DNA of 45,646 nt from Alphaproteobacteria bacterium (GTDB taxonomy: Bacteria; Pseudomonadota; Alphaproteobacteria; SMXQ01). The stretch covers positions 1 to 45,646 of the forward strand of contig JAOTVC010000005.1 in NCBI GenBank assembly GCA_029863585.1. Reading direction: 5' to 3'. The notes beneath the pieces are model-generated. The model saw only the letters and a list, made by a program, of their open reading frames with translations. It did not search any database and was not told where the DNA came from. A program made the position numbers and the translations under genes. This document shows, piece by piece, positions 13,716 to 40,920 of this stretch; position 1 is the stretch's first letter, and each line of letters starts with the position of its first letter.

Positions 13716-15443
13716 CTAGCGTCGCACGTCGCCGTCTGCGCCGATGGCAACGCCGTAGGCCGCTACCGCCGCGTCTTCCGTGATGTAACCGCGCCTGAGG
13801 TCACGCGCGATCAGGTCGAGTTCGCGCTCCGCCGGATCGCCGTAACCGCCGCCGCCGCCGGTCTCCAGCACCGCCCTGTCGCCGGGCTTGAGCGGCACGC
13901 CCTTGGCCTTGCACAGCACCTCGCCGTCGCCGCCGCCGCCGCGGTAGACCGTGACCAGCCCGGATTTCCCGGGCGCGCCGCCGCGCACGCCCCAGGGCGG
14001 CGTCTTGGTGCGGTCCAGGTTGGTCTGCAGGAAGCAATCGTCCAGGATGGTGTAGGACTTGCGGAATCCGAGCCCGCCCCGGAACTTGCCGGGCCCGCCG
14101 GAATCGGCCCGCAGGGTGCATTCCTCGATGCGGAAGGGCAAAATGGTTTCCTGCAGTTCCATGGGGATCAGCCTTGTGTCGCCATGGGCCATGGTGCGGA
14201 ACGGTCCGGCCCCGTCATGCCAGGCGCAGGCGCCCCAGCCGCCATGGCCGCTGTCATGGCCGTTGAAGGCTTCACCGGTCTTCTTGCGGCCGTAGACGCG
14301 GAAGCCCGAATGGGTGGCGAAATGACCGCCGGTGACGTGTTCCGGCATGGCCTGTTCGAAGGCCCGGATGACGGCGTCGATCACGGTCGGGAAGGGCATC
14401 GAATAGTTGCCCATGGGGGCGGTCGGCGGCGCGCTCAGGATCTTGCCCTCGGGCAGGATCAGTTTCAGCGGGCGGAAGACGCCTTCGTTGGCGCCTTCCT
14501 TGGGGACCACCAGGTATTTGAAGGCGACCCGGGCGGTGGTCACGCCGCCGCCGAAATAGCCCGAGTTGATGCAGCCGGGCGCGGCATCGCCCATGCCGGA
14601 GTAATCCACCGTGATCTCGTCGCCGTCGACGGTGATCTTGACGCGGACCGGGATCGGCACGTCGTGGTCGCCGTCGTTGTCGAGCCACGTCTCGGTCTCG
14701 TAGGTGCCGTCGGGCATCTCGCGGATCCGCGCCCGGGCCGCCGCCTCCCCGGCATCGAGGATCGCCGTCACCGCGCGGAAGAAGGTCTCCAATCCATAGC
14801 GTTCGGCCAGCGCCCGGGTGAGGTCGCGGCCCAGCAGGCAGCCCGCAAGCTGTGCCGAAATGTCGCCCATCAGCTCCACCGGCAGCCGGGTGTTGTTTTC
14901 GATGATGCGATAGACCTCGTCGATCGGCTCGCCCTTGGACCACAGCTTGATGGAGCGCAGCTGCAGCCCTTCTTCGAAGATGTCGCGCGAGCGCGGCGTC
15001 GAGCCGCCGATGTCGATCCAATGCACGTTGATGGCGAAGAAACCGATCAGGGTGGCCCCGTCGGGCCCGCCGTAGATCGGCGTGTACATCACCGTGTTGT
15101 TGAGGTGCTGGCCCTGGACGGCAGCGTGGTTGCACACCACCACGTCGCCCTCGAACAGTCGCTCGCGGCCGTAGATCTCGAGCCCGTCGCGCACGGCGGT
15201 GCCGACCGAATCGGCGACGAAGGGCGGCATGCCGCCGGTCGATTGCGCCACCAGCTGGCCGTCGGCATCCACCAGGCCGACGGCGAAGTCCTTGTATTCG
15301 TAAATATAGGGGCTGAACGCGGTGCGCGTGATATTGGCGTCGATCTGGTCGGTGATGCCGATGATGCCGTGGCGAATCACTTCCAGGGTGATGGGATCGA
15401 TGGCCGCGTCCCCGGCCTTGGCGCTGTCGCTATCCGCTTCCAT
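13716..15443 (-). CDS. hyuB: Hydantoinase B/oxoprolinase subunit 1
   Basis: A 575-residue HyuB-type subunit. With HyuA it forms ATP-dependent enzymes that open cyclic amides (hydantoin, 5-oxoproline) or carboxylate ketones. Family landmarks include DPITLEVIRHGI at the N-terminus, NHAAVQGQHLNNTVM, HWIDIGGSTPRSRDIFEEGLQ, and the Gly-rich GGGGGYGDP at the C-terminus. The start is set at 15443 because it falls 5 nt after the HyuA stop, with GGAGAGGAATAAGGA upstream; the ORF-track start would overlap HyuA. The tight gap implies translational coupling and a HyuA:HyuB complex. A close paralogue lies at 39220-40920. Substrate not known. Confidence 0.93.
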   Translation of the reverse strand: MEADSDSAKAGDAAIDPITLEVIRHGIIGITDQIDANITRTAFSPYIYEYKDFAVGLVDADGQLVAQSTGGMPPFVADSVGTAVRDGLEIYGRERLFEGDVVVCNHAAVQGQHLNNTVMYTPIYGGPDGATLIGFFAINVHWIDIGGSTPRSRDIFEEGLQLRSIKLWSKGEPIDEVYRIIENNTRLPVELMGDISAQLAGCLLGRDLTRALAERYGLETFFRAVTAILDAGEAAARARIREMPDGTYETETWLDNDGDHDVPIPVRVKITVDGDEITVDYSGMGDAAPGCINSGYFGGGVTTARVAFKYLVVPKEGANEGVFRPLKLILPEGKILSAPPTAPMGNYSMPFPTVIDAVIRAFEQAMPEHVTGGHFATHSGFRVYGRKKTGEAFNGHDSGHGGWGACAWHDGAGPFRTMAHGDTRLIPMELQETILPFRIEECTLRADSGGPGKFRGGLGFRKSYTILDDCFLQTNLDRTKTPPWGVRGGAPGKSGLVTVYRGGGGDGEVLCKAKGVPLKPGDRAVLETGGGGGYGDPAERELDLIARDLRRGYITEDAAVAAYGVAIGADGDVRR

Positions 15444-15448
15444 GGTCC

Positions 15449-17494
15449 TTATTCCTCTCCGCAATGGATGCGGATCTCGTGAAGCTTTCCGATCTCGAAG
15501 CGATCGTCGGGACCGATGAGGGTGGTCGAGCCGAACTCCTCGATCACCGCCGGACCGGCGCCCTGAAACCCGGGCGCGAGCGACGCGCGGTCATAGATCT
15601 TGGTCGCCAGCGCCGCGCCCTGGAACGTCACCAGCCGCTCGCCTTCCGGGACCGCGTCGCCGGCGGCGCGCGGCAGGCGCGCGATATCCGGCCGGTCGAG
15701 CGCCGCGAAGGCCGAAAGATGCAGGGCCTGGAACTCGACCTCGGCCTTGGCGTCGGCATGGCCGTAGCGGCGCTTGTAGTCATGGGCGAAGGCATCCCGG
15801 ATCGCCGCCACATCGCGCAGGCCGGAAACCGGCACCTTGATGTTGTGGCGCTGGCCGCAGTAACGCATCTCCGCATGATGTTCGAAATAGACGTCCTTGG
15901 CCCCGAAGTCGCGCGCCAGCGCCTTGGCGGCGGCGTCTTCCATGGCCAGGAACTGCGCCGTCATGGTCTCCACCATTGCTTGATCGAGAGGCCCGGTGAA
16001 GGTCTCCGCCGCGTCGATCCGGGCATCGGCCAGGAGCATGCCGATGGCGGAAAAATTGCCCGGTTCCGGCGGCACGATGACCAGCGGGATGTTGAGCTCC
16101 CGCGCCAGGTTGGCGGCGTGCAGCGGCCCGCCCCCGCCATAGGAGAACAGCGCGAAGTCACGCGGGTCCAATCCGTGTTCGACCGATACCCGGCGGATCG
16201 CGCCGGCCATGGTGACGGTGGCGATGGCAAGCACGCCCTCGGCCATGCGGATGGCGCCGTCAGCGCCCCCATATCCCAGCGGGCCCGCCACCTGCTCGGC
16301 GATCGCCTGGGCGGCGCCGGGGGCGTCCAGCTTGAGCTTGCCGCCCAGGAACTTCTCGGCATTGAGGCGGCCCAGCACCAGGTTGGCGTCGGTCACGGTC
16401 GGCCGCGTGCCGCCCTGGCCGTAGCAGACCGGACCGGGGCTGGAACCGGCGCTCTCCGGTCCCACGTGGAGCCGGGTCTGATCGTCGAGCCAGGCGATGG
16501 AACCGCCGCCGGAGCCCACCTCGACGATGTCGATGACCGGCGACTTGATGGGGAAGCCCTTGACGTAGCCGTTGACGTAATAGACCGAATCCACCGAAAA
16601 GCGGCCCTGGTCGATGAGCGCGCATTTCGCCGTGGTACCGCCCATGTCGAAGGAGATCAGGTTCTTGAGGCCGAGCGCCTGGGCATAGGCGCCGGCGCCG
16701 ATGCAGCCGCCGATGGGCCCCGATTCCACCAGCGCGACCGGCTGGCGGCAGGTCCGCTCGACCGAGATCAGGCCGCCGTTGGATCCCATCATGAAGAGCG
16801 ACCCGTCGAAGCCGCGGCCCTCCATGTCGCTTTCCAGCCGGCGCACATAGGTGCTGACCTGAGGGCCGACATAGGCGTTGGCGGCGGCGGTGGAGGAGCG
16901 TTCGTATTCGTACCATTCCCGGGTCAGCTCCGTGGAATAGGTCACGTAGACGCCGGGCAGGTTGGATTTGAGGATCTCCGCCGCCTCGGCCTCATGGCGG
17001 GGGTCGAGATAGGAATTCATGAAGAAGACGGCGACCGCCTCGACGTCGAGGGACCTGAGATGCGACGCCAGGTCCGCCAGCGCTTGCACGTCCAGCGGCG
17101 TGATGATCTCGCCGTCGGCGCCGATGCGTTCCGGCACCTCGAAGCGCAGATCGCGGGGGATCAGCGGTTCGTCGCGTTCGTAATAGAGGTCGAAGGGGTC
17201 GGGCCGGTTGGCGCGGGCGATTTCCAGGACGTCGCGGAAGCCCTTGGTTGTGACCAATGCCGTCTTGGCGCCCTGGCGCTGGATCAGCGAGTTGATGACC
17301 AGGGTCGTGCCGTGGTTGAGCAGCTCGGCATCGGCCGGGCCGACACCGGCCTGATCGAAGCAGGTGAGAATACCGTCCACGAAATTGCCGTAGGTGGTCG
17401 GGCTCTTGGCGTAGATCACGTCCTTGGTGACCGGATCGAAGGCGACGAGATCGGTGAACGTCCCCCCGATGTCGACAGCGACGGCGAAACTCAT
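15449..17494 (-). CDS. hyuA: Hydantoinase A/oxoprolinase subunit
   Basis: A 681-residue HyuA-type ATPase subunit with an actin/sugar-kinase-like fold that activates the substrate by phosphorylation. VDIGGTFTDLVAFD at residues 8-21 is the N-terminal phosphate loop. NHGTTLVINSLIQRQG, MGSNGGLIS, LISFDMGGTTAKCALI and SYGGGGPLHA follow in family order, and no key block is missing. GAGGGG lies about 6-8 nt before the ATG, and a candidate promoter sits at 17537-17565. It is the first gene of a three-gene operon with HyuB and the CMD-like protein. Cytoplasmic. Oxoprolinase, N-methylhydantoinase and acetone/acetophenone carboxylase subunits share this architecture, so the exact reaction is open. Confidence 0.94.
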   Translation of the reverse strand: MSFAVAVDIGGTFTDLVAFDPVTKDVIYAKSPTTYGNFVDGILTCFDQAGVGPADAELLNHGTTLVINSLIQRQGAKTALVTTKGFRDVLEIARANRPDPFDLYYERDEPLIPRDLRFEVPERIGADGEIITPLDVQALADLASHLRSLDVEAVAVFFMNSYLDPRHEAEAAEILKSNLPGVYVTYSTELTREWYEYERSSTAAANAYVGPQVSTYVRRLESDMEGRGFDGSLFMMGSNGGLISVERTCRQPVALVESGPIGGCIGAGAYAQALGLKNLISFDMGGTTAKCALIDQGRFSVDSVYYVNGYVKGFPIKSPVIDIVEVGSGGGSIAWLDDQTRLHVGPESAGSSPGPVCYGQGGTRPTVTDANLVLGRLNAEKFLGGKLKLDAPGAAQAIAEQVAGPLGYGGADGAIRMAEGVLAIATVTMAGAIRRVSVEHGLDPRDFALFSYGGGGPLHAANLARELNIPLVIVPPEPGNFSAIGMLLADARIDAAETFTGPLDQAMVETMTAQFLAMEDAAAKALARDFGAKDVYFEHHAEMRYCGQRHNIKVPVSGLRDVAAIRDAFAHDYKRRYGHADAKAEVEFQALHLSAFAALDRPDIARLPRAAGDAVPEGERLVTFQGAALATKIYDRASLAPGFQGAGPAVIEEFGSTTLIGPDDRFEIGKLHEIRIHCGEE

Positions 17495-19060: not shown

Positions 19061-20056
19061 TCAGGCGCTCTGGGCGATCCGCGAGGCAGGCGCACGGTGA
19101 TGGGCGTGACCCCAGATCACCACCGCATAGAGCAGTGAAAGGGCGCCGATCAGGAAGGTGCTACCGACGTTGAAGGCGAAGAGCGAGGCCCCCGGCCCGG
19201 CGATGATGACCAGCAGGTTGAGCAGCCCGAACACGCCGAGGATCAGTGAAATCGGGGCCCAAAACGCGCGGCGGCGGGCGAACGACCGGGGCCGGGCGAA
19301 TTGCTCGGCGGCCACCCCGTCCCACCGCGCCGCCCAGGACAGGACGAGGATGGCGCCCACGCCCAGGGCCAGGAACAGGACGCCGTAGAGCTGGCGCGCC
19401 GTGGCTTCCAGGGCGCCCGGAGCATGCAGCTCTGGCTCCCCCAGGTAGAGCAGGTAATTCGAACTTCCATGCAGCAGCGCCGGCACCGCGAAGGCGCAGC
19501 ACGCCATGGCATACCGCCAACGCCCCTTCCAGGACAGCACCAGGAAGAACCCCATGATGACGCCCAGGAAAACATGATTGGGGACCGACACCAGGGCCCT
19601 CAGCATGGCGATGCGGCCCCAATTGAGGGTGCCGGCGGTGACCAGGATGTTCTCCACCGCCGCGAAGGCGCCGCCCACGGCGACCGCGATCACGATCAGG
19701 GCCGCGGGACGCACCTTGGCCCGGAAGCACAGCAGGACGCCCAGGATCGTCAGCAGCTTGAGCCCTTCCTCGACCAGGCCGCCAAACACGAAGGCGCGGA
19801 CGAACACATAGCCGTAAAGTCCGTCGAAGGTCACAAGCTCCACCAGGGTCAGCCCCTGCAGCCAGGCGAAAGACACGTTGGGCGAATGGTCAAGGAAGGA
19901 TTGGATCAACAGCGCCGGCAGCGAGATCAGCGTCCCCGCCAGGAAGGCCAGCGCCATCGGGGCGGCCGGCGTGATCGGTCCGACGCGTTCCTGGAGGTAT
20001 TTCAGCCACAGGAACACCGGCGTGAACGCCGCAAGAATCAGGAATGCATAAGTCAC
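19061..20056 (-). CDS. PrsW-family intramembrane protease-like protein
   Basis: A 331-residue inner-membrane protein with about eight to nine hydrophobic segments. The PrsW motifs are visible in order: VEEGLKLL (EExxK), FAAVENIL, VPNHVFLG and LHGSSNYLL. These Glu and His residues form the proposed active site of this CPBP-related clan; the founding member cleaves an anti-sigma factor. No sigma/anti-sigma pair is encoded here, so its target is unknown and simple scaffolding roles are possible. Translation starts at GTG (20056), with AGGGGAGG about 12 nt upstream. The upstream 230-nt gap holds three GTTAAC sites. It converges on receptor 3. Confidence 0.85.
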   Translation of the reverse strand: MTYAFLILAAFTPVFLWLKYLQERVGPITPAAPMALAFLAGTLISLPALLIQSFLDHSPNVSFAWLQGLTLVELVTFDGLYGYVFVRAFVFGGLVEEGLKLLTILGVLLCFRAKVRPAALIVIAVAVGGAFAAVENILVTAGTLNWGRIAMLRALVSVPNHVFLGVIMGFFLVLSWKGRWRYAMACCAFAVPALLHGSSNYLLYLGEPELHAPGALEATARQLYGVLFLALGVGAILVLSWAARWDGVAAEQFARPRSFARRRAFWAPISLILGVFGLLNLLVIIAGPGASLFAFNVGSTFLIGALSLLYAVVIWGHAHHRAPASRIAQSA

Positions 20057-20285: not shown

Positions 20286-20711
20286 TTATTCCGCGGCCGC
20301 TTCGACGCTGGAGGTCGAGACGATCTCGATGCTGTTGCCGTCGGGATCCTGGATATAGACGTGGCGCCGTCCCGGGAAGGTGGTGTGCCCGGCATTGGTG
20401 CAGATGTAATACTCGATGCCCTCGGCCTCGAAATACTTGAGCGCCCGGTCCCACTCGTCGGGCTCGACGATCATGGCGTGATGGAACAGGGTGGTTTCCA
20501 GGTCCAGCGCGCCCGGCAGGTTGGGCTTGACGTGGTTGGGCATGGAGGTGAGGACGAAGAAATCCTCGCCGCATTTCATGAACGACATGGTGTTCTTGCC
20601 GTTCTTGCGCACCAGTTCGCATCCCAGCACGTCCTGATAGAACTTGGTGGCCCGGTCGAGGTCGGTGACCGAGATGGTCAGATGGAGAAATCCCTTGGTC
20701 TTGAGCATCAT
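20286..20711 (-). CDS. VOC-family (glyoxalase/dioxygenase fold) protein 2
   Basis: A 141-residue VOC protein resembling the one at 1400-1804 through its whole length. Shared blocks include LHLTISV, a CGEDFFVL-type strand, SMPNHVKPN, FHHAMIVEP and the closing VYIQDPDGNSIEI, so the likely metal ligands (His, His, Glu) are kept. Two ATG codons are adjacent at the start. It lies 54 nt after the MetE-like gene on the same strand and is probably the third gene of the molybdoenzyme operon. The metal-dependent reaction (ring opening, lyase or isomerase) cannot be chosen from sequence. The AT-poor C-terminal tail SVEAAAE is unremarkable. Confidence 0.85.
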   Translation of the reverse strand: MMLKTKGFLHLTISVTDLDRATKFYQDVLGCELVRKNGKNTMSFMKCGEDFFVLTSMPNHVKPNLPGALDLETTLFHHAMIVEPDEWDRALKYFEAEGIEYYICTNAGHTTFPGRRHVYIQDPDGNSIEIVSTSSVEAAAE

Positions 20712-20765
20712 CCGTATCCTTCCTTTTCCCTGTCTCTCATGACTTGGCTCGCGCCCCGGCGCCGA

Positions 20766-21887
20766 TCAAACCCGGCCCCAGATCTCCCCGGCGAGGCGCA
20801 CCAGAAGTTCCAGCTTGGCAACCTCCTGCTCCTGGGTCAGCGGATTGCCGTGGTGTTCGCTGGCGAAGCCGCATTGCGGGCTGATGCAGAGCTGATCGAG
20901 GTCGACATACCCCGCCGCCTCCTCCACCCGGCGCCGCAATTCGTCGGCATCCTCCAGATCACCGGTCTTGGTGGAGACCAAGCCGAGCACGACCCTCTTG
21001 TCCTTGGGCACGCAGGCCAAGGGCGAGAAGTCCCCGGCCCGGGGACTGTCGTATTCCAGGAAGAAGCCATCGACCGCGAGCTCGTTGAACATGGCTTCCG
21101 CCACCGGGTCGTAACCACCCGCCGCCTGCCAGAATCCCCGGCTGTTGCCCCGGCACATGTGGACGCAGACGGTGAGGTCGTCGGGCCGCCCGGCAAGGGT
21201 GCGGTTCATCACCTCGAGATACCGCTTGGCGAGGTCGCGCCAATCGTCGCCGCGATCCTTGAGCGCCTGGACGATGGCCGGGTCGCCGAACTTGGCGAAG
21301 GCGGTCTCGTCGAGCTGGATATAGCGGCAGCCCGCGCCGTAGAGCGCCGCCATCTCCTTGGAAATGGCGTCGACCATGTCGTCCCAGAAGAGGTCGAGAT
21401 CGGGATAGGCGGCGCGGTCGATATTGTCGCGCCCGGCCAGGAAATGCAGGATGCAAGGCCCCGGGAGGGTGATCTTGACGGTGCGCTTGGTCCGCGCGGC
21501 GAGGTATTTGAAGTCCTCCACATGGACCGGGTGCATCCAGCGCATGCGGGCGAAGATTTCCGGCTGGGCGGCGCCTTTGCGCTCGCCCTCGGCATTGGTG
21601 TAGTACCAGGACTTCGACGCCTCGATCCCCGGGCGCACCCCGCCCAACCCGTCGACATAGAAGCCGCCGTAATAGTTCCGCCGCCGGAACTCGCCGTCGG
21701 TGATGGTCATCAGGCCGGCTTCCTCCTGCAGGCGGACGACGTCGTCGATGGCGCGGTCCTCTATCCGGGCCAGGGCGTCCCGCTCCATCTCGCCGCGGCC
21801 ATAGGCTTCCCGGGCGCGCACCAGGTCGGCGGGGCGCAACAGGCTGCCGACGTGATCGGCCCGGTAGGGCGGAGGGGGCGCGGTCAT
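20766..21887 (-). CDS. MetE-like (cobalamin-independent methionine synthase fold) zinc methyl/alkyltransferase 1
   Basis: A 373-residue protein matching only the catalytic C-terminal barrel of MetE (COG0620); the N-terminal folate-binding barrel is absent. The zinc ligands are all visible: His243 and Cys245 in VHMCRG, Glu278 in FLEYDSPRAG and Cys339 in SPQCGF. It therefore probably activates a thiol. Such short homologues include core methionine synthases and epoxyalkane:coenzyme M transferases, and many lie in catabolic clusters with no known reaction. The ORF track extends to 22190, but the true ATG (21887) overlaps the molybdoenzyme stop as ATGA, giving translational coupling. That coupling suggests a shared pathway, not methionine synthesis, though this is inference. 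Confidence 0.88.
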   Translation of the reverse strand: MTAPPPPYRADHVGSLLRPADLVRAREAYGRGEMERDALARIEDRAIDDVVRLQEEAGLMTITDGEFRRRNYYGGFYVDGLGGVRPGIEASKSWYYTNAEGERKGAAQPEIFARMRWMHPVHVEDFKYLAARTKRTVKITLPGPCILHFLAGRDNIDRAAYPDLDLFWDDMVDAISKEMAALYGAGCRYIQLDETAFAKFGDPAIVQALKDRGDDWRDLAKRYLEVMNRTLAGRPDDLTVCVHMCRGNSRGFWQAAGGYDPVAEAMFNELAVDGFFLEYDSPRAGDFSPLACVPKDKRVVLGLVSTKTGDLEDADELRRRVEEAAGYVDLDQLCISPQCGFASEHHGNPLTQEQEVAKLELLVRLAGEIWGRV

Positions 21888-24241
21888 GGCGCGTCGCTCG
21901 CCCGGGCATCGCGGATCGCGCGCCAGACCCGCTGAGGCGTCGCCGGCATTTCCACATGGCGCACGCCGAGATCGGACAGCGCATCGACGATGGCATTGAC
22001 CACCACCGCCAGGGCCGGCGTGGTGCCGCCCTCGCCGCCGCCGCGCACCCCCAGCTTGTTGCGCGGCGAGGGCACCTCGCTGATCTCGACCTTGAAGGGG
22101 GGCGTGCGGTGGGCGCGGGGCATGGGGTAATCCATGAAGGAGCCCGACATCAGCTGCGCGGTTTCGCGGTCGTAGACGCAATGCTCCCACATCGCCTGGC
22201 CGATCCCCTGGACCGCGCCACCGTGGCTCTGGCCGCGCAGGATCAGCGGGTTGATGGCGCGCCCGACATCGTCGACGCAGGCGTAGCGCTCCAGCACGAC
22301 CTCGCCGGTGGCGGGGTCCACTTCCACCTCGCAGACATGGCAGCCATAGGGGAAGGCGCCGACCGGCACGTGTTCTTCCGACACCGCCATCAGGGCGCCT
22401 TGCAGATCGTCGGGCAGGCCGTCGTCGTCCGCCGCCGCCCGGGCCACCTCGAACAGCCCGAGACCCCGGTTGGTACCCCGGACGGTGAACTGGCCGTCGG
22501 CGAAATCGATCTCTTCCCCAGTTGCGTCAAGGCAATGGGCGGCGATGCGCTTGCCCCGCGCGATGATCTCGTCGGTCGCGATTCCCATGACGATGCCCGC
22601 CATGCGCATGGACCGGGCCGAATGGGACCCGCCGCCTTCCTTGACGATGTCGGTGTCGCCGGTGACCAGATCGACCTCCCCGGCCGGCACCGCAAGCCAC
22701 TCGGTGATCAGCTGCGCGAAGCTGGTCTCGTGGCCCTGGCCCGAAGACAGCGTCCCGATCACCACCTCCACCCGGCCATCGGGGCGGACGGTGATCTCGG
22801 TCCTCTCGCGGGGGTAGCCGCCGGTCAGCTCCAGGTAGTTGGCGATGCCGATGCCGCGGTACTTGCCGCGCTTGCGTGCCTCCGCCTTGCGGGCAGCGAA
22901 CCCGTCCCAGTCGCCGAGCGCCGCCGCCGCCGCCAGCACCTGGTCGTAGGCGCCGCAGTCGTATGGCAGGCCGAGGGGGCTGGTCCACCCTTCGCCGCGA
23001 TGGGGCAGCAAATTGCGCCGACGCAGTTCGATCCGGTCGATGCCGAGCTCGCCCGCCGCCAGGTCGATCAGGCGCTCGACGATGAACATCGCCTCGGGCC
23101 GCCCGGAGGACCGGTAGTTGTTGACCGGCGGCTTGTTGGAAAACACCGCCTGGGCCCGGAAATAGGCCGCGTTGATGTCGTAGACCCCGGTCATCAGCTC
23201 GACCCCCTTGATCAGGGGCACGAAGGTGATGGGAAAGGCACCGACGTTGAGCGTATTGGTGCCGCGGATGGCGAGGAAGCGCCCCTCGGCGTCGAGCGCG
23301 AGTTCCGTATCCGACGCAAGATCGCGGCCCTGATAGTCGCTGAGAAAGGCTTCGGACCGGTCGGCCGTCCACTTGACCGGCCGCCCCAGCCGCTTGGCGG
23401 CCCAGACCACCAGGGGGAACTCCGGATAGATCGCGTTGCGGGTGCCGAAATTGCCGCCGACATCCTTGGCGACGACGCGGACGTCCGCCTCCGCCACCTT
23501 GAGGATCTCGGCCAGCTCGCGCTTCTGGCGGACGACGCCGCCGGACCCGGCATAGAGGGTATGGCGCCCCGCTTCGCCGTCATAGGCGCCGATGGCGGCG
23601 CGCGGCTCCATGGGCACCCCGGTGACGCGCTGGATCTCGGTCTTCAGCCGCACCACATGGGCGGCCTTGGCGAACACCGCCGCCGTCGCGTCCTCGTCCC
23701 CGGCATCGGCATCGACCACCAGGTTGGTGCCGTGCCCTTCCCATACCAGCGGCGCGCCATCTTGGGCGGCATCGAGCCCCCGGGCCACCGCCGGGCGCGG
23801 GGCATATTGGATGACCACCGCCTCCGCCGCGGCCCGGGCCTGGTCCTGGGTGTCGGCGACGATCATGGCGACGGCCTCGCCGGTGAAGCGGACCCGGCCC
23901 TCGGCCAGCAGGGTCTGGGCCGGGATCACCGGCGTCTCGCCGCTGCGGTGGGTGAGCTGGATATCCGGCGGGCCGGTGCGGGGCGGCGGATGATGGATCG
24001 GTTCGATCCCGTCGGCGCCGAGGTCCTCGGCCGTCAGCACCGCATGGACGCCGGGCATGGCGGCGGCTTCGGCGCGGTCGAGGGAGACGATATCGGCATG
24101 GGGATGGGGCGAGCGCGCGAAGGCGGCATAGAGCTGGCCGGGCAGGTTGACGTCGTCGCTGAACGATCCCCGTCCCGTCAACAGCCGATGGTCTTCCCTG
24201 CGCGGAAGGGGCGCGCCGATCCCGGTGCTCATGTCTGCCAT
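21884..24241 (-). CDS. Xanthine dehydrogenase-family molybdopterin-binding large subunit (CoxL/XdhB-like)
   Basis: A 785-residue molybdenum hydroxylase large subunit. These enzymes hydroxylate aldehydes, purines or N-heteroaromatics with water as oxygen source. IGAPLPRREDHRLLTGRGSF at the N-terminus, the VGGNFGTRN block, PVNNYRSSGRPEAMF, SSGQGHETSFAQL and GVRGGGEGGTTPALAV (with the probable catalytic Glu) follow family order. The ORF track begins at 24466; I start at 24241, although the ATG at 24232 has better spacing to the GGGAG site. No [2Fe-2S] or FAD subunit gene is adjacent or anywhere in the window, so partners must be encoded elsewhere. It is first in the operon with the MetE-like and VOC genes. 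Confidence 0.92.
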   Translation of the reverse strand: MADMSTGIGAPLPRREDHRLLTGRGSFSDDVNLPGQLYAAFARSPHPHADIVSLDRAEAAAMPGVHAVLTAEDLGADGIEPIHHPPPRTGPPDIQLTHRSGETPVIPAQTLLAEGRVRFTGEAVAMIVADTQDQARAAAEAVVIQYAPRPAVARGLDAAQDGAPLVWEGHGTNLVVDADAGDEDATAAVFAKAAHVVRLKTEIQRVTGVPMEPRAAIGAYDGEAGRHTLYAGSGGVVRQKRELAEILKVAEADVRVVAKDVGGNFGTRNAIYPEFPLVVWAAKRLGRPVKWTADRSEAFLSDYQGRDLASDTELALDAEGRFLAIRGTNTLNVGAFPITFVPLIKGVELMTGVYDINAAYFRAQAVFSNKPPVNNYRSSGRPEAMFIVERLIDLAAGELGIDRIELRRRNLLPHRGEGWTSPLGLPYDCGAYDQVLAAAAALGDWDGFAARKAEARKRGKYRGIGIANYLELTGGYPRERTEITVRPDGRVEVVIGTLSSGQGHETSFAQLITEWLAVPAGEVDLVTGDTDIVKEGGGSHSARSMRMAGIVMGIATDEIIARGKRIAAHCLDATGEEIDFADGQFTVRGTNRGLGLFEVARAAADDDGLPDDLQGALMAVSEEHVPVGAFPYGCHVCEVEVDPATGEVVLERYACVDDVGRAINPLILRGQSHGGAVQGIGQAMWEHCVYDRETAQLMSGSFMDYPMPRAHRTPPFKVEISEVPSPRNKLGVRGGGEGGTTPALAVVVNAIVDALSDLGVRHVEMPATPQRVWRAIRDARASDAP

Positions 24242-24387
24242 GTCTCCCTGCGGTGCCACGCCCAGGCGGCGGGCCGGATTTTTCGACCGGCTTGGTTTTT
24301 CCGGCCCCCGATTATCAGACGTCTTTCGCGCGAAGCCAAGCCGTTGTCCACCGGCAATAGCGGCGAGAGGGCCGTCACCCGAGGGCC

Positions 24388-24403
24388 GGGATATGGATAT
24401 CCC
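24388..24403. promoter_or_regulatory. Palindrome in the divergent molybdoenzyme/MetE-like promoter region
   Basis: GGGATAT and ATATCCC are perfect 7-nt inverted arms around GG, lying in the 239-nt gap between the molybdoenzyme (minus) and the second MetE-like gene (plus), about 80 nt before the latter. A dimeric regulator site controlling both directions is a fair guess, but no regulator gene is nearby. Confidence 0.4.
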
Positions 24404-24480
24404 CCGCCTTGGCGTATGATGATGAATATCGACCCGCCGGCCGGCGGCACATAAAAGATCATTCATCGTGGGAGGAGATC

Positions 24481-25491
24481 ATGAACCTGGGCCCGCTCGC
24501 CACCACCACCGTCGGCAGTTTTCCGAGGCCGTCCTGGCTGGCCGACGTCACCCGCTCGCGCGCCGCGTTCCGGCTCGAAGGCGCGGCCCTGGCGGAAGCC
24601 CAGGATGACGCCGTCGCGCTGATCCTCAAGGAACAGGAAGAGGCCGGTCTCGATATCGTGACCGACGGCGAACAGCGGCGCGAAAGCTTCGTGATGTACC
24701 TACCCGCGAGCTGGGAGGGCGTCGATACCGAGAACCTCAAGGAAAAGAAGATCTACCGCAACAAGGTGCAGCCGCGCCCGGTGCCGCGCATCGTCGGCAA
24801 GGTGAAACGCAAGGGGGCGCTGATGACGCCGGACGTCGCGTTCGCCAAGGCGCATACCGTGAAGCCGCTCAAGATGGCGGTGCCGGGGCCGATGACGGTG
24901 ATCGACAGCACCCTGAACGAAGCCTATGACGACGAGGGCGAGTTGGCCATGGACATCGCCGCGGCGGTCAATGGCGAGCTGCGGGACCTGCAGGCGGCGG
25001 GCTGCGACGTGCTGCAGCTCGATGAGCCGGCGATGACCCGCTATCACGACAAGGTGGCGGATTACGGCGCGGCGGCCCTGGACCGGGCGCTTGAAGGCAT
25101 CACCGTGCCGACCATCGTGCATCTCTGCTTCGGCTATCCCGGCGGCTTGAGCCTGCAGCACGAATACGAATACCCCGAGCTTCTCGACAACCTGATGAAG
25201 ACGCGGATCGGCGGCTTCGCCGTCGAATTCGGCCGTTCCACCTTCGATCCCGAGGTGCTGAAGGCCTGCGGCGACCGCATCGTCATGTACGGCTGTATCG
25301 ATCCCGGCGCCGCCCCGGTGCCGGAGGTCGATGCGGTCAAGGCGCGGGTGGCCGAGGCGTTGGAGCACCTCGATCCCAACCAGGTCTGGCTGGCGCCCGA
25401 TTGCGGCCTGATGACCATCGATCGCCGGCTTGCCCGGGAAAAGGTCGCGGTCATGGTGCAAGCCGCCGACGAACTGCGCAGAGCGCTGTGA
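24481..25491 (+). CDS. MetE-like zinc methyl/alkyltransferase 2
   Basis: A 336-residue second MetE-core homologue, divergent from the first. Zinc ligands are intact: His214 and Cys216 in VHLCFGYPGG, Glu249 in VEFGRS and Cys308 in PDCGLM. TTTVGSFPRPSWL at the N-terminus and VTDGEQRRE are usual family blocks. The N-terminal MetE barrel is missing, as in the other copy. The ATG at 24481 has GGGAGGAG 3-4 nt upstream; the ORF-track extension upstream is rejected. It is transcribed away from the molybdoenzyme operon across a shared promoter region. The two proteins differ clearly in their middle parts, so they may act on different thiols or methyl donors. True methionine synthesis is possible but less favoured by context. 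Confidence 0.89.
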   Translation: MNLGPLATTTVGSFPRPSWLADVTRSRAAFRLEGAALAEAQDDAVALILKEQEEAGLDIVTDGEQRRESFVMYLPASWEGVDTENLKEKKIYRNKVQPRPVPRIVGKVKRKGALMTPDVAFAKAHTVKPLKMAVPGPMTVIDSTLNEAYDDEGELAMDIAAAVNGELRDLQAAGCDVLQLDEPAMTRYHDKVADYGAAALDRALEGITVPTIVHLCFGYPGGLSLQHEYEYPELLDNLMKTRIGGFAVEFGRSTFDPEVLKACGDRIVMYGCIDPGAAPVPEVDAVKARVAEALEHLDPNQVWLAPDCGLMTIDRRLAREKVAVMVQAADELRRAL

Positions 25492-38186: not shown

Positions 38187-39236
38187 ATGACGCGGATGCT
38201 CTCCTATATCCTGTGGCCCTGGCTGTTTGGCGATTGCGTTGCCCTCAACCACCTGGCGCTCGGCAGCAATCACCCGATCGTCTATTTCAACCTGATCTAC
38301 CTGGGGCTGGCATGCTGCCTCTTGCTGCTGGAACGCGTCCTGCCCTTCGAACGCCAGTGGCTCGCCGATGACGGCCAGATCGGTGTCGATCTCGGCCATA
38401 CCTTGCTCAACAAAGGTCTCGTGCAGGTGGGGGCGGTCGCGGTGGTCGCCATGGGCATCGCCGAAACGGTGGATCCGGAGCCCGCCGCTATGTGGCCAAC
38501 GGCTTGGCCGATCGCCGGCCAGGTCATCCTTGGCCTCGTGATCGCCGAATGCGGCCTCTATTTCGCCCATCGGCTGGCCCATGAATGGCCCAAGCTGTGG
38601 TGCTTCCACGCGGTCCACCACAGCGTGACCCGGCTTTGGGTCGTCAACACCGGGCGCTTCCATTTCGTCGACACCATGGCCTCGATCGCCCTCAGCCAGT
38701 CGCTCCTCTATCTCGCCGGAGCGCCGAAACCGATCTTCCTTTGGGTCGCCGCGATCACCGCCTTCATCGGCATCCTGACCCATTGCAACGTGGCCATGCG
38801 CGCCGGCTGGCTCAACCTGGTGTTCAACACGCCGGAACTGCACCGCTGGCACCATTCCCGGATCACAGAAGAGGGCAACACCAATTACGGCGAGAACCTG
38901 ATGTTCATGGACCTTCTGTTCCGCTCCTATTTCTTGCCGAACCGCAGGCCGCCCGCCGATATCGGCATCGACCGCGGCATGCCCAAGACTCTGCTGGGCC
39001 AACTGCGCGCGCCCTTTATGTGGCTCGCCGGCGAACGCGGCCAACCGCTACTCGCCGTCGCCGGCGCAGGAGAGGAAGCCGTCCCTCCCCGGCGCGCGAG
39101 TGATCCCTCCAAACGCCCATCCGCTTGCCGCATCGCGCCCGAGCCCGGACAATGGCAGCGGACGCGGGACGATCCCGCGCCCGGTTTGAGGGTCCGGCGG
39201 GAACAAGCGAAGAAGGCCGATGGACGCAGCGGATGA
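38187..39236 (+). CDS. Sterol desaturase/fatty-acid hydroxylase-family membrane protein
   Basis: A 349-residue integral membrane di-iron oxygenase-type protein. The His clusters expected for the metal centre are present: HRLAH (128-132), HAVHH (141-145), His200 and HRWHH (219-223), placed after about four hydrophobic segments. The family hydroxylates or desaturates lipids, sterols or hopanoid-like compounds and needs an electron donor not encoded nearby. GGGAGGGC precedes the ATG at 38187. The last roughly 60 residues are Pro/Arg-rich and unlike the family; they may result from loss of an earlier stop. The 3' end overlaps the next gene by 17 nt, so the two are probably co-expressed. Confidence 0.87.
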   Translation: MTRMLSYILWPWLFGDCVALNHLALGSNHPIVYFNLIYLGLACCLLLLERVLPFERQWLADDGQIGVDLGHTLLNKGLVQVGAVAVVAMGIAETVDPEPAAMWPTAWPIAGQVILGLVIAECGLYFAHRLAHEWPKLWCFHAVHHSVTRLWVVNTGRFHFVDTMASIALSQSLLYLAGAPKPIFLWVAAITAFIGILTHCNVAMRAGWLNLVFNTPELHRWHHSRITEEGNTNYGENLMFMDLLFRSYFLPNRRPPADIGIDRGMPKTLLGQLRAPFMWLAGERGQPLLAVAGAGEEAVPPRRASDPSKRPSACRIAPEPGQWQRTRDDPAPGLRVRREQAKKADGRSG

Positions 39237-40920
39237 CGTGACGACCGGCCAGACGGCGGTAGACCCGATCACGCTGGAGGTCATCCGTCACGGCGTGGTG
39301 TCGATCACCGATCAGATCGACGCCAACATCACGCGCACCGCCTTCAGCCCCTATATCTACGAATACCGCGACTTCGCCGTCGGCCTGGTCGGCCCGGAAG
39401 GCGAATCCATCGCCCAGTGCCGTGGCGGCATGCCGATCTTCGTTGCCGATTCCGTCGGCATGGCGGTGCGCGACGGGATCGCGACCTACGGGCTGGACAA
39501 CCTGCATCCCGGCGACGTGATCCTCTGCAACCACGCCGCCATCCAGGGCCAGCACCTCAACAACACGGTCATGTACACACCGGTCTTCGCCGGGCCGGAG
39601 GAGGACCGATTGGTCGGCTTCTTCGCCATCAATGTGCACTGGATCGACGTCGGCGGATCGGTGCCGCGCTCGCGCGACATCTTCGAAGAAGGGCTGCAGC
39701 TGCGCTCCATCAAACTGTGGTCCAAGGGCGCACCCATCGAGGAGGTCTACCGCATCATCGGCGACAACACCCGCACGCCGGAAGCGCTGATGGGGGATAT
39801 CGAGGCGCAGCTCGCGGGTTGCCTGCTGGGCCGCGACCTGACCCGGGAGCTCGCGGAGCGCTACGGCCCGGACACCTACCTCGCGGGCCTCGCCGCCATC
39901 CTCGACCAGTCGGAAAGCGCCACCCGCGCGCGCATCCGGGATATGCCCGACGGTACATACGAATCGGAGGCCTTCCTCGACAATGACGGCGAGGGGAATA
40001 CGCCGGTCCCGATCAGGATCCGTGTCATCGTCGACGGCGACGAGTTGACGGTCGATTACTCCGACATGGCGGAGGCTGTCCCCGGCTGTATCAATTCCGG
40101 CTACTACGGTGGCGGTCGCACCACCGCGCGGGTCGCCTTCAAATACCTGCTCGGCGCGCAAGAAGCGGCCAACGAAGGGACCTTCCGGCCGCTGAAGCTG
40201 ATCCTGCCCGAAGGCAAGCTGCTGAGCGCGCCGCCGACCGCGCCCATGGGCAATTACGGCCATCCCTTCCCGACGATCATCGACGCCGTGATCCGCGCCT
40301 TCGAACAGGTCGCGCCCGATCGCGTGACCGGCGGCCATTACGGCACCTTCGCGGGCTTCCGGTTCCTGGGGACCGACGCAACGGGGGCGCCGTTCGATTG
40401 TCATGTCTGCGGCTACGGCGGCTGGGGCGCCAGCGCGCGGGGCGACGGGGGCGGGCCCTTCCGCACCATGGCCCATGGCGACACCAAGCTGATCCCCATG
40501 GAATTGCAGGAAGCACTCTACCCCGTCCTGATCGAGGAGCTGGCGCTGCGCCCGGATTCCGGGGGCGCTGGACGGATGCGGGGGGGACTCGGGATGATCA
40601 ACACCTATCTCGTGGGGGCCCCCTGCCGCCTCGTCGTAAAGTTCGACCGCGTCGATTGCCCGCCCTGGGGGGTGGCCGGCGGCAAGGATGCCAAGGCCGG
40701 CTGGGTGACGGTGGAGAAGGCGGCGACCGGAGAGCGGGTGACCTTGCGCAAGGACAAGGGCTACCCGCTGGAGATCGGCGACCGCGTCATCGTCACCGTG
40801 GGCGGCGGCGGCGGATGGGGAGCGCCGGGCGAACGCGATGCGGGCGCCATCGCGCGCGACATCCGCCTGGGCTACGTCACGCCGGAGGCCGCCCGGACCG
40901 ATTACGGCCGCACCGGCTGA
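39220..40920 (+). CDS. hyuB: Hydantoinase B/oxoprolinase subunit 2 (solitary paralogue)
   Basis: A 566-residue HyuB paralogue, clearly close to the copy at 13716-15443: the segments DPITLEVIRHG, FSPYIYEY, QGQHLNNTVMYTP and RSRDIFEEGLQLRSIKLWSKG are the same or nearly so in both. All family blocks, including the C-terminal VGGGGGWGAPGERDAG, are present, so it is not a decayed copy. No HyuA gene accompanies it; it would have to use the HyuA encoded near 15-17 kb or one elsewhere. AGAAGG precedes the ATG by 3 nt, and the start lies inside the desaturase reading frame. It ends 4 nt from the convergent MmgE/PrpD gene. Confidence 0.91.
   Translation: MDAADDVTTGQTAVDPITLEVIRHGVVSITDQIDANITRTAFSPYIYEYRDFAVGLVGPEGESIAQCRGGMPIFVADSVGMAVRDGIATYGLDNLHPGDVILCNHAAIQGQHLNNTVMYTPVFAGPEEDRLVGFFAINVHWIDVGGSVPRSRDIFEEGLQLRSIKLWSKGAPIEEVYRIIGDNTRTPEALMGDIEAQLAGCLLGRDLTRELAERYGPDTYLAGLAAILDQSESATRARIRDMPDGTYESEAFLDNDGEGNTPVPIRIRVIVDGDELTVDYSDMAEAVPGCINSGYYGGGRTTARVAFKYLLGAQEAANEGTFRPLKLILPEGKLLSAPPTAPMGNYGHPFPTIIDAVIRAFEQVAPDRVTGGHYGTFAGFRFLGTDATGAPFDCHVCGYGGWGASARGDGGGPFRTMAHGDTKLIPMELQEALYPVLIEELALRPDSGGAGRMRGGLGMINTYLVGAPCRLVVKFDRVDCPPWGVAGGKDAKAGWVTVEKAATGERVTLRKDKGYPLEIGDRVIVTVGGGGGWGAPGERDAGAIARDIRLGYVTPEAARTDYGRTG

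Follow-up and report, generated by a model that had tools for sequence, protein, structure and literature searches.

Epoxyalkane:coenzyme M transferase (XecA/EtnE) has a MetE-core fold and works by Zn-thiolate chemistry. For another protein of this kind, MesD, the presence of the partner gene for MesX has been taken as a criterion for the true enzyme (PMC7857596). In turn, 26,690 ocean genomes encode 119,560 CoxL-like proteins, 1,924 of them form I (PMC13203968), and a 2026 survey attributed the lone coxL genes among marine Mo-CO dehydrogenases to genome incompleteness (PMC13240472). Our literature searches found nothing that deals directly with orphan Mo-hydroxylase subunits, or with MetE-type proteins that take part in demethylation or ring cleavage.

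The window described here, a stretch of 45,646 nucleotides, is one whole contig (C229) of an alphaproteobacterial assembly of 4.09 Mb in 383 contigs (completeness 100, contamination 7.07). It carries a stand-alone CoxL together with two MetE-like proteins and a VOC protein. We consider it probable, though by no means firm, that these genes form a catabolic group assembled locally, in which a Mo hydroxylase with shared subunits is accompanied by an accessory methyl or alkyl transferase of the Zn-thiolate type.

Gene order and protein families at the locus

On the minus strand the genes are ordered CoxL, MetE1 and VOC. The CoxL-type molybdopterin-binding large subunit (21884-24241, 785 aa), assigned by Pfam, tree position and catalytic Glu, has an alternative start, MSTG, at 24232. 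It meets MetE1 (20766-21887, 373 aa), a core-MetE-like Zn protein of the NF005085/PRK06520 family, in a start-stop overlap of four common bases, ATGA (GCGCCATGACC), and the VOC gene (20286-20711, 141 aa; Pfam Glyoxalase, 53.8 bits) starts 54 bases past MetE1. An earlier note on this DNA had given correct coordinates, the overlap and a VOC gene that follows, and the reading frames confirm them. It had also described MetE2, a second core-MetE-like Zn protein from the neighbourhood of MesD, as divergent, which holds; the likely start of this gene is at 24481 rather than at 24409 (24481-25491, plus strand, 336 aa). An intergenic region of 239 bp, read from the sequence, separates the divergent CoxL and MetE2 (24242-24480). 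The HyuB and HyuA hydantoinase/oxoprolinase-type genes (13716-17494, minus strand) are neighbours and at most putative members of the group. The hydantoinase-B-type genes at 13716-17494 and 39220-40920 are 66% alike, and HyuA is adjacent to one of them only.

A Pfam search found in CoxL the domains Ald_Xan_dh_C, MoCoBD_1 and MoCoBD_2, which place it among the large subunits of the xanthine oxidase family. The solved CoxL/form II-like large subunits (8uem, 7dqx, 1ffu, 1t3q) have the same three domains in the same order and the catalytic Glu, and the nearest of them, the CoxL of 8uem, aligns with the window protein over its full length (468 bits). However, unlike the solved proteins, the window CoxL has no adjacent CoxS or CoxM, does not carry the AYxCSFR loop and has Gly for the Mo-site Gln. 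The motif YRSSGRP stands where CO-dehydrogenase has the loop, which sets the protein apart from form I Mo-CO dehydrogenase. The Gly takes the place of CODH Gln240, an equivalence drawn from alignment to CO dehydrogenase, and is found in 25 of the 65 members of its clade, window CoxL included; therefore the reaction may not be a standard one. The catalytic Glu is present in all 65 members (65/65) and the MPT-binding glycines of GGxFG are retained. With its Mo-site residues kept, CoxL is most likely a hydroxylase or dehydrogenase.

Both MetE-like proteins match Meth_synt_2 (Pfam). As the earlier note had claimed, each consists of one catalytic barrel (336-373 aa) with no N-terminal folate barrel, and each keeps the four Zn ligands. 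In MetE1 these are H242, C244, E277 and C338, invariant in 17 relatives, and the homocysteine-site residues are likewise invariant or nearly so among relatives. In MetE2 the ligands lie in the HLC, VEF and PDCG motifs, which were placed by alignment to the structures of MetE and MesD. By alignment, both proteins hold the residues of a core methionine synthase (Zn H, C, E, C; homocysteine-site Ser/Glu/Asp). MetE1 passes the NF005085 model (372.7 bits, cut-off 313) and is up to 53% identical to its relatives in the NF005085/PRK06520 family, in which all Zn ligands are kept; none closer was found. The solved structure nearest to it is 1ypx, a structural-genomics entry from Listeria. The MetE-core fold and Zn-thiolate chemistry are common to MetE1, MetE2 and epoxyalkane:CoM transferase; unlike the context of the latter, no CoM-biosynthesis or epoxide-pathway genes were recognised in the window.

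The VOC protein has a His-His-Glu metal-ligand pattern, read from its sequence, and has this pattern and the Glyoxalase domain in common with FosA/glyoxalase-type VOC proteins. However, it scores far under every named NCBIfam VOC cut-off, and its nearest solved relatives are glyoxalase-type. The predicted folds of CoxL, MetE1, MetE2 and VOC are fixed by matches to such solved relatives.

Conservation of the CoxL-MetE-VOC neighbourhood

An 8.9 kb contig from the same genus (L068) holds an orthologue of CoxL (79%), with VOC (82%) directly after it and then PrsW (58%); in the window, the PrsW-family membrane protein is likewise encoded downstream (19061-20056, minus strand). An isocitrate-lyase/PEP-mutase family gene lies upstream of CoxL in L068, and no MetE gene is present on this contig, neither between CoxL and VOC nor upstream. 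The two loci are truly related, since three further window genes, for a class II aldolase, an LVIVD-repeat protein and a TctC receptor, also have orthologues in L068. In the window these three genes adjoin a second VOC gene (1400-1804), a paralogue (48%) of the one at 20286-20711; roughly 15 kb lies between the two neighbourhoods there, and in L068 they are joined, the aldolase, LVIVD and TctC genes standing beside CoxL-VOC.

Two other genera have CoxL orthologues at 68-71%, with no MetE and no VOC gene of the window type nearby. The neighbours of these orthologues, named by eye, are ketopantoate-reductase-, AMP-ligase- and malate-synthase-like genes and a hydrolase. Moreover, 37 other loci of the CoxL clade, covering 555 kb, are all free of MetE-like genes. 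From the opposite side, 120 loci around relatives of MetE1 and MetE2 were covered; five of them include any CoxL, and it is close in three of these (L130, L123 and L125). An orphan CoxL stands in tandem after a MetE1 relative in L130; L123 and L125, from two genomes of one family, have MetE ahead of a complete coxMSL set, with L125 reading MetE-coxM-coxS-coxL-hyuA-hyuB on one strand. These two independent arrangements of a Mo hydroxylase with MetE are about what chance would give, because some 10-20 CoxL per 4500 genes lead to one or two expected meetings, a rough estimate rather than a formal test. Thus L068, the orthologues at 68-71% and the 37 loci do not support a conserved CoxL-MetE neighbourhood, and this is the first of the outcomes that the earlier note had named as refuting its proposal.

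VOC or extradiol genes are enriched beside MetE1 relatives, at 16/463 for ranks 1-2 against 4/944 for ranks 3-8 (p ~2e-5, uncorrected for related loci, the window and related loci being counted in), and next to CoxL-clade genes the difference is not significant (7/211 at ranks 1-3 and 2/219 further out). Several catabolic families near MetE1 relatives also adjoin CoxL genes of the clade, and therefore the CoxL clade and the MetE1 family move in one catabolic cassette pool.

These data bear on the proposal of the earlier note, a pathway that couples hydroxylation of a substrate with thiol or methyl transfer. Worked out as a dedicated pathway, CoxL would hydroxylate a methylated (hetero)aromatic, MetE1 would transfer the methyl group, or else a thiol adduct, onto a thiol, VOC would open or rearrange the ring, and translational coupling would reflect this one pathway. 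The ATGA overlap and the enrichment of VOC beside MetE1 relatives speak for it, as do one extradiol-type VOC family found both by CoxL (L266/L269/L271) and by MetE1 (L135/L136), the orphan CoxL in tandem with a MetE1 relative in L130 and the gene run of L125. However, we regard it as rather unlikely, with MetE absent from L068 and from the 37 CoxL-clade loci, and with CoxL in 5/120 MetE-relative loci, three of them close, where chance gives one or two. The coupling is mostly unsupported: the VOC enrichment and the position of the MetE proteins outside verified methionine synthases stand in its favour, but the linkage itself is not conserved.

We favour instead the locally assembled group, the core of which would be a xanthine-oxidase-family large subunit that stands alone, from a clade normally not found beside coxS/coxM, plus VOC in the genus. 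MetE1 may have joined the CoxL-VOC pair in the window lineage, or it may have disappeared from the sister. The composition of MetE1 gives no signal of foreign origin (GC3 0.88, compared with 0.83-0.89 in its neighbours). On the other hand, the ATGA overlap argues for joint translation of CoxL and MetE1 in the window organism, which counts against this reading, and it is possible that CoxL, MetE1 and MetE2 act on one substrate.

MetE1 and MetE2 in relation to methionine synthases

In the tree, both MetE-like proteins lie outside verified methionine synthases. MetE1 falls in its own NF005085 branch, on a long branch (0.72) within a clade of sequences from Beijerinckiaceae and Xanthobacteraceae, among others, and MetE2 is placed near but outside MesD. 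The likeness of MetE2 to MesD (3rpd, 199 bits) lies in the single barrel and the Zn site; however, it is only about 36-37% identical (36% to Acinetobacter MesD), short of the level of about 55% that was set for MesD, and under the family cut-off, its best NCBIfam match being PRK09121 with 241 bits against 392. No gene for MesX (DUF1852) is found among its annotated neighbours in the window. MetE2 is a second core-MetE, a distant relative of MetE1 with similar chemistry.

The genome encodes MetH in a stretch of 808 aa (TIGR02082, 1301 bits, cut-off 1010.85), and therefore neither MetE1 nor MetE2 is needed for methionine. Moreover, MetE1 has three paralogues in the same genome, which brings the NF005085-type genes to four. 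It is thus unlikely that the two proteins serve as back-up core-type methionine synthases with no link to catabolism: the retained Zn and homocysteine-site residues and the place of MetE2 near MesD would fit such a role, but the MetH gene, the score of MetE2 under the MesD cut-off with no adjacent MesX gene, unlike true MesD, and four NF005085-type genes in one genome, more than any methionine need, argue against it.

For MetE1, catabolic methyl or alkyl transfer seems more likely than methionine synthesis, given the often catabolic neighbours of its relatives and the MetF-like neighbour of MetE in L128. In the locally assembled group, its Zn-thiolate site would most likely take a methyl or alkyl group off a catabolic substrate and pass it to a thiol, homocysteine or a different one, as suggested by the conserved residues of the Zn and homocysteine sites, the independent MetH and the neighbours of its relatives. 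Besides the VOC genes, these neighbours include TctC receptors, thiamine-diphosphate enzymes, cupins and VanA-like genes, several of them named by eye. In L128 (7331-11056), the NF005085 MetE-like gene adjoins the MetF-like gene, named by eye, and a gene for a thiamine-diphosphate enzyme, an arrangement that hints at folate-linked methyl transfer. In Sphingomonas (L185, L187, L195 and L205), genes for protocatechuate metabolism (LigA/LigB-, PobA- and MFS-like) lie close to MetE1 relatives. A MetE2-like gene (40%), annotated as uroporphyrinogen decarboxylase family, occurs on pUSP2 of Aminobacter sp. MSH1 (L317, 3225-11891), in an operon-like run with a TRAP transporter, citryl-CoA lyase, CaiB-type CoA-transferase and extradiol dioxygenase.

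Large subunits without CoxS and CoxM

Whole-genome searches confirm that CoxS and CoxM are absent from the window, as the earlier note had stated: the contig has no match to Fer2_2 or FAD_binding_5, and the locus does not have the adjacent [2Fe-2S] and FAD subunit genes of a three-subunit enzyme. When the rest of the genome was searched, as that note had suggested, nine CoxS and six CoxM matches were found on other contigs, compared with 17 MoCoBD_1 matches, about 15 genes, for the large subunit; these counts are approximate because of the 7% contamination of the assembly.

In 11 genomes of the order there are 55 CoxL proteins at least 40% identical to window CoxL, and 45 of these have no CoxS within 4 kb, as opposed to 6/27 of those below 40% (21/27 have one). 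Since short contigs inflate orphan counts, we recounted in G308, a complete one-contig genome of the class with a chromosome of 4.15 Mb. It encodes 41 large subunits and 14 CoxS; 14 of the large subunits have a CoxS no more than 5 kb away, and for 25 even the nearest CoxS is more than 10 kb distant. The orphans of G308 are mostly tens to hundreds of kb away from any CoxS.

A tree of 101 large subunits, built by a quick method with SH-aLRT support only, places window CoxL inside a branch of 65 rows (SH-aLRT 96), 62 of which have no CoxS within 10 kb or up to the contig end; the other three have one 7-14 kb off. The nearest neighbours outside this branch are mostly paired large subunits, and the orphan label can be explained by 10 changes along the tree, compared with 26.8 after shuffling. 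The absence of CoxS and CoxM is therefore a property of the clade and no quirk of the window locus, and this clade of stand-alone large subunits is the part of the locus most worth following. CoxS genes 12-14 kb from CoxL orthologues (G009, G003) were considered as distant partners and rejected after reading the loci; they are no evidence of pairing, because each adjoins its own IorB-type large subunit.

Close homologues of window CoxL also occur in cultured rhizobia (51-52% identity). On annotated Neorhizobium replicons, CoxL of the same kind has no S or M gene within 9 kb. In Sinorhizobium meliloti pA (L316, 4609-14295), there are two CoxL to one coxS, one coxM and one coxG-like gene, the two CoxL-type genes flanking a UbiD-like gene and being followed by coxG-like, coxS and coxM. 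Sharing is thus the simplest reading, and the small subunits are probably common to several CoxL; it is visible in one cluster only, from a neighbouring group (~51% identity) outside the window CoxL subclade. For the organism of the window we infer that CoxL would borrow [2Fe-2S] and FAD subunits encoded elsewhere in the genome. It is very unlikely that the orphan clade works without these subunits, as a non-redox Mo enzyme or with another electron acceptor: the excess of 27 large over small subunits in the complete genome G308 and the Gly at the Mo-site Gln position in 25/65 members, window CoxL among them, would agree with it, but the orphans retain the positions conserved in paired subunits (except one Ala position and gap columns), the Sinorhizobium cluster has two CoxL to one coxSM, and every genome examined encodes small subunits.

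We suggest tentatively that a very large branch of xanthine-oxidase-type large subunits may have lost small and FAD subunits of their own, one set serving dozens of interchangeable catalytic subunits or none being needed, with CoxL here co-translated with a Zn-dependent methyl or alkyl transferase. If one electron-transfer set serves dozens of catalytic subunits, this would be a modular redox system with testable rules, and such sharing would have a bearing on many unassigned CoxL-like genes. For the wider CoxL-like branch, the complete genome G308 and the complete rhizobial replicons speak against explaining lone genes by genome incompleteness. Genuine lone CoxL genes are abundant and the large orphan branch has drawn little notice, the window locus itself being a modest catabolic group.

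The CoxL cluster of Sinorhizobium meliloti pA also has a UbiX-like gene, and UbiD-type genes recur next to orphan CoxL at nine loci.
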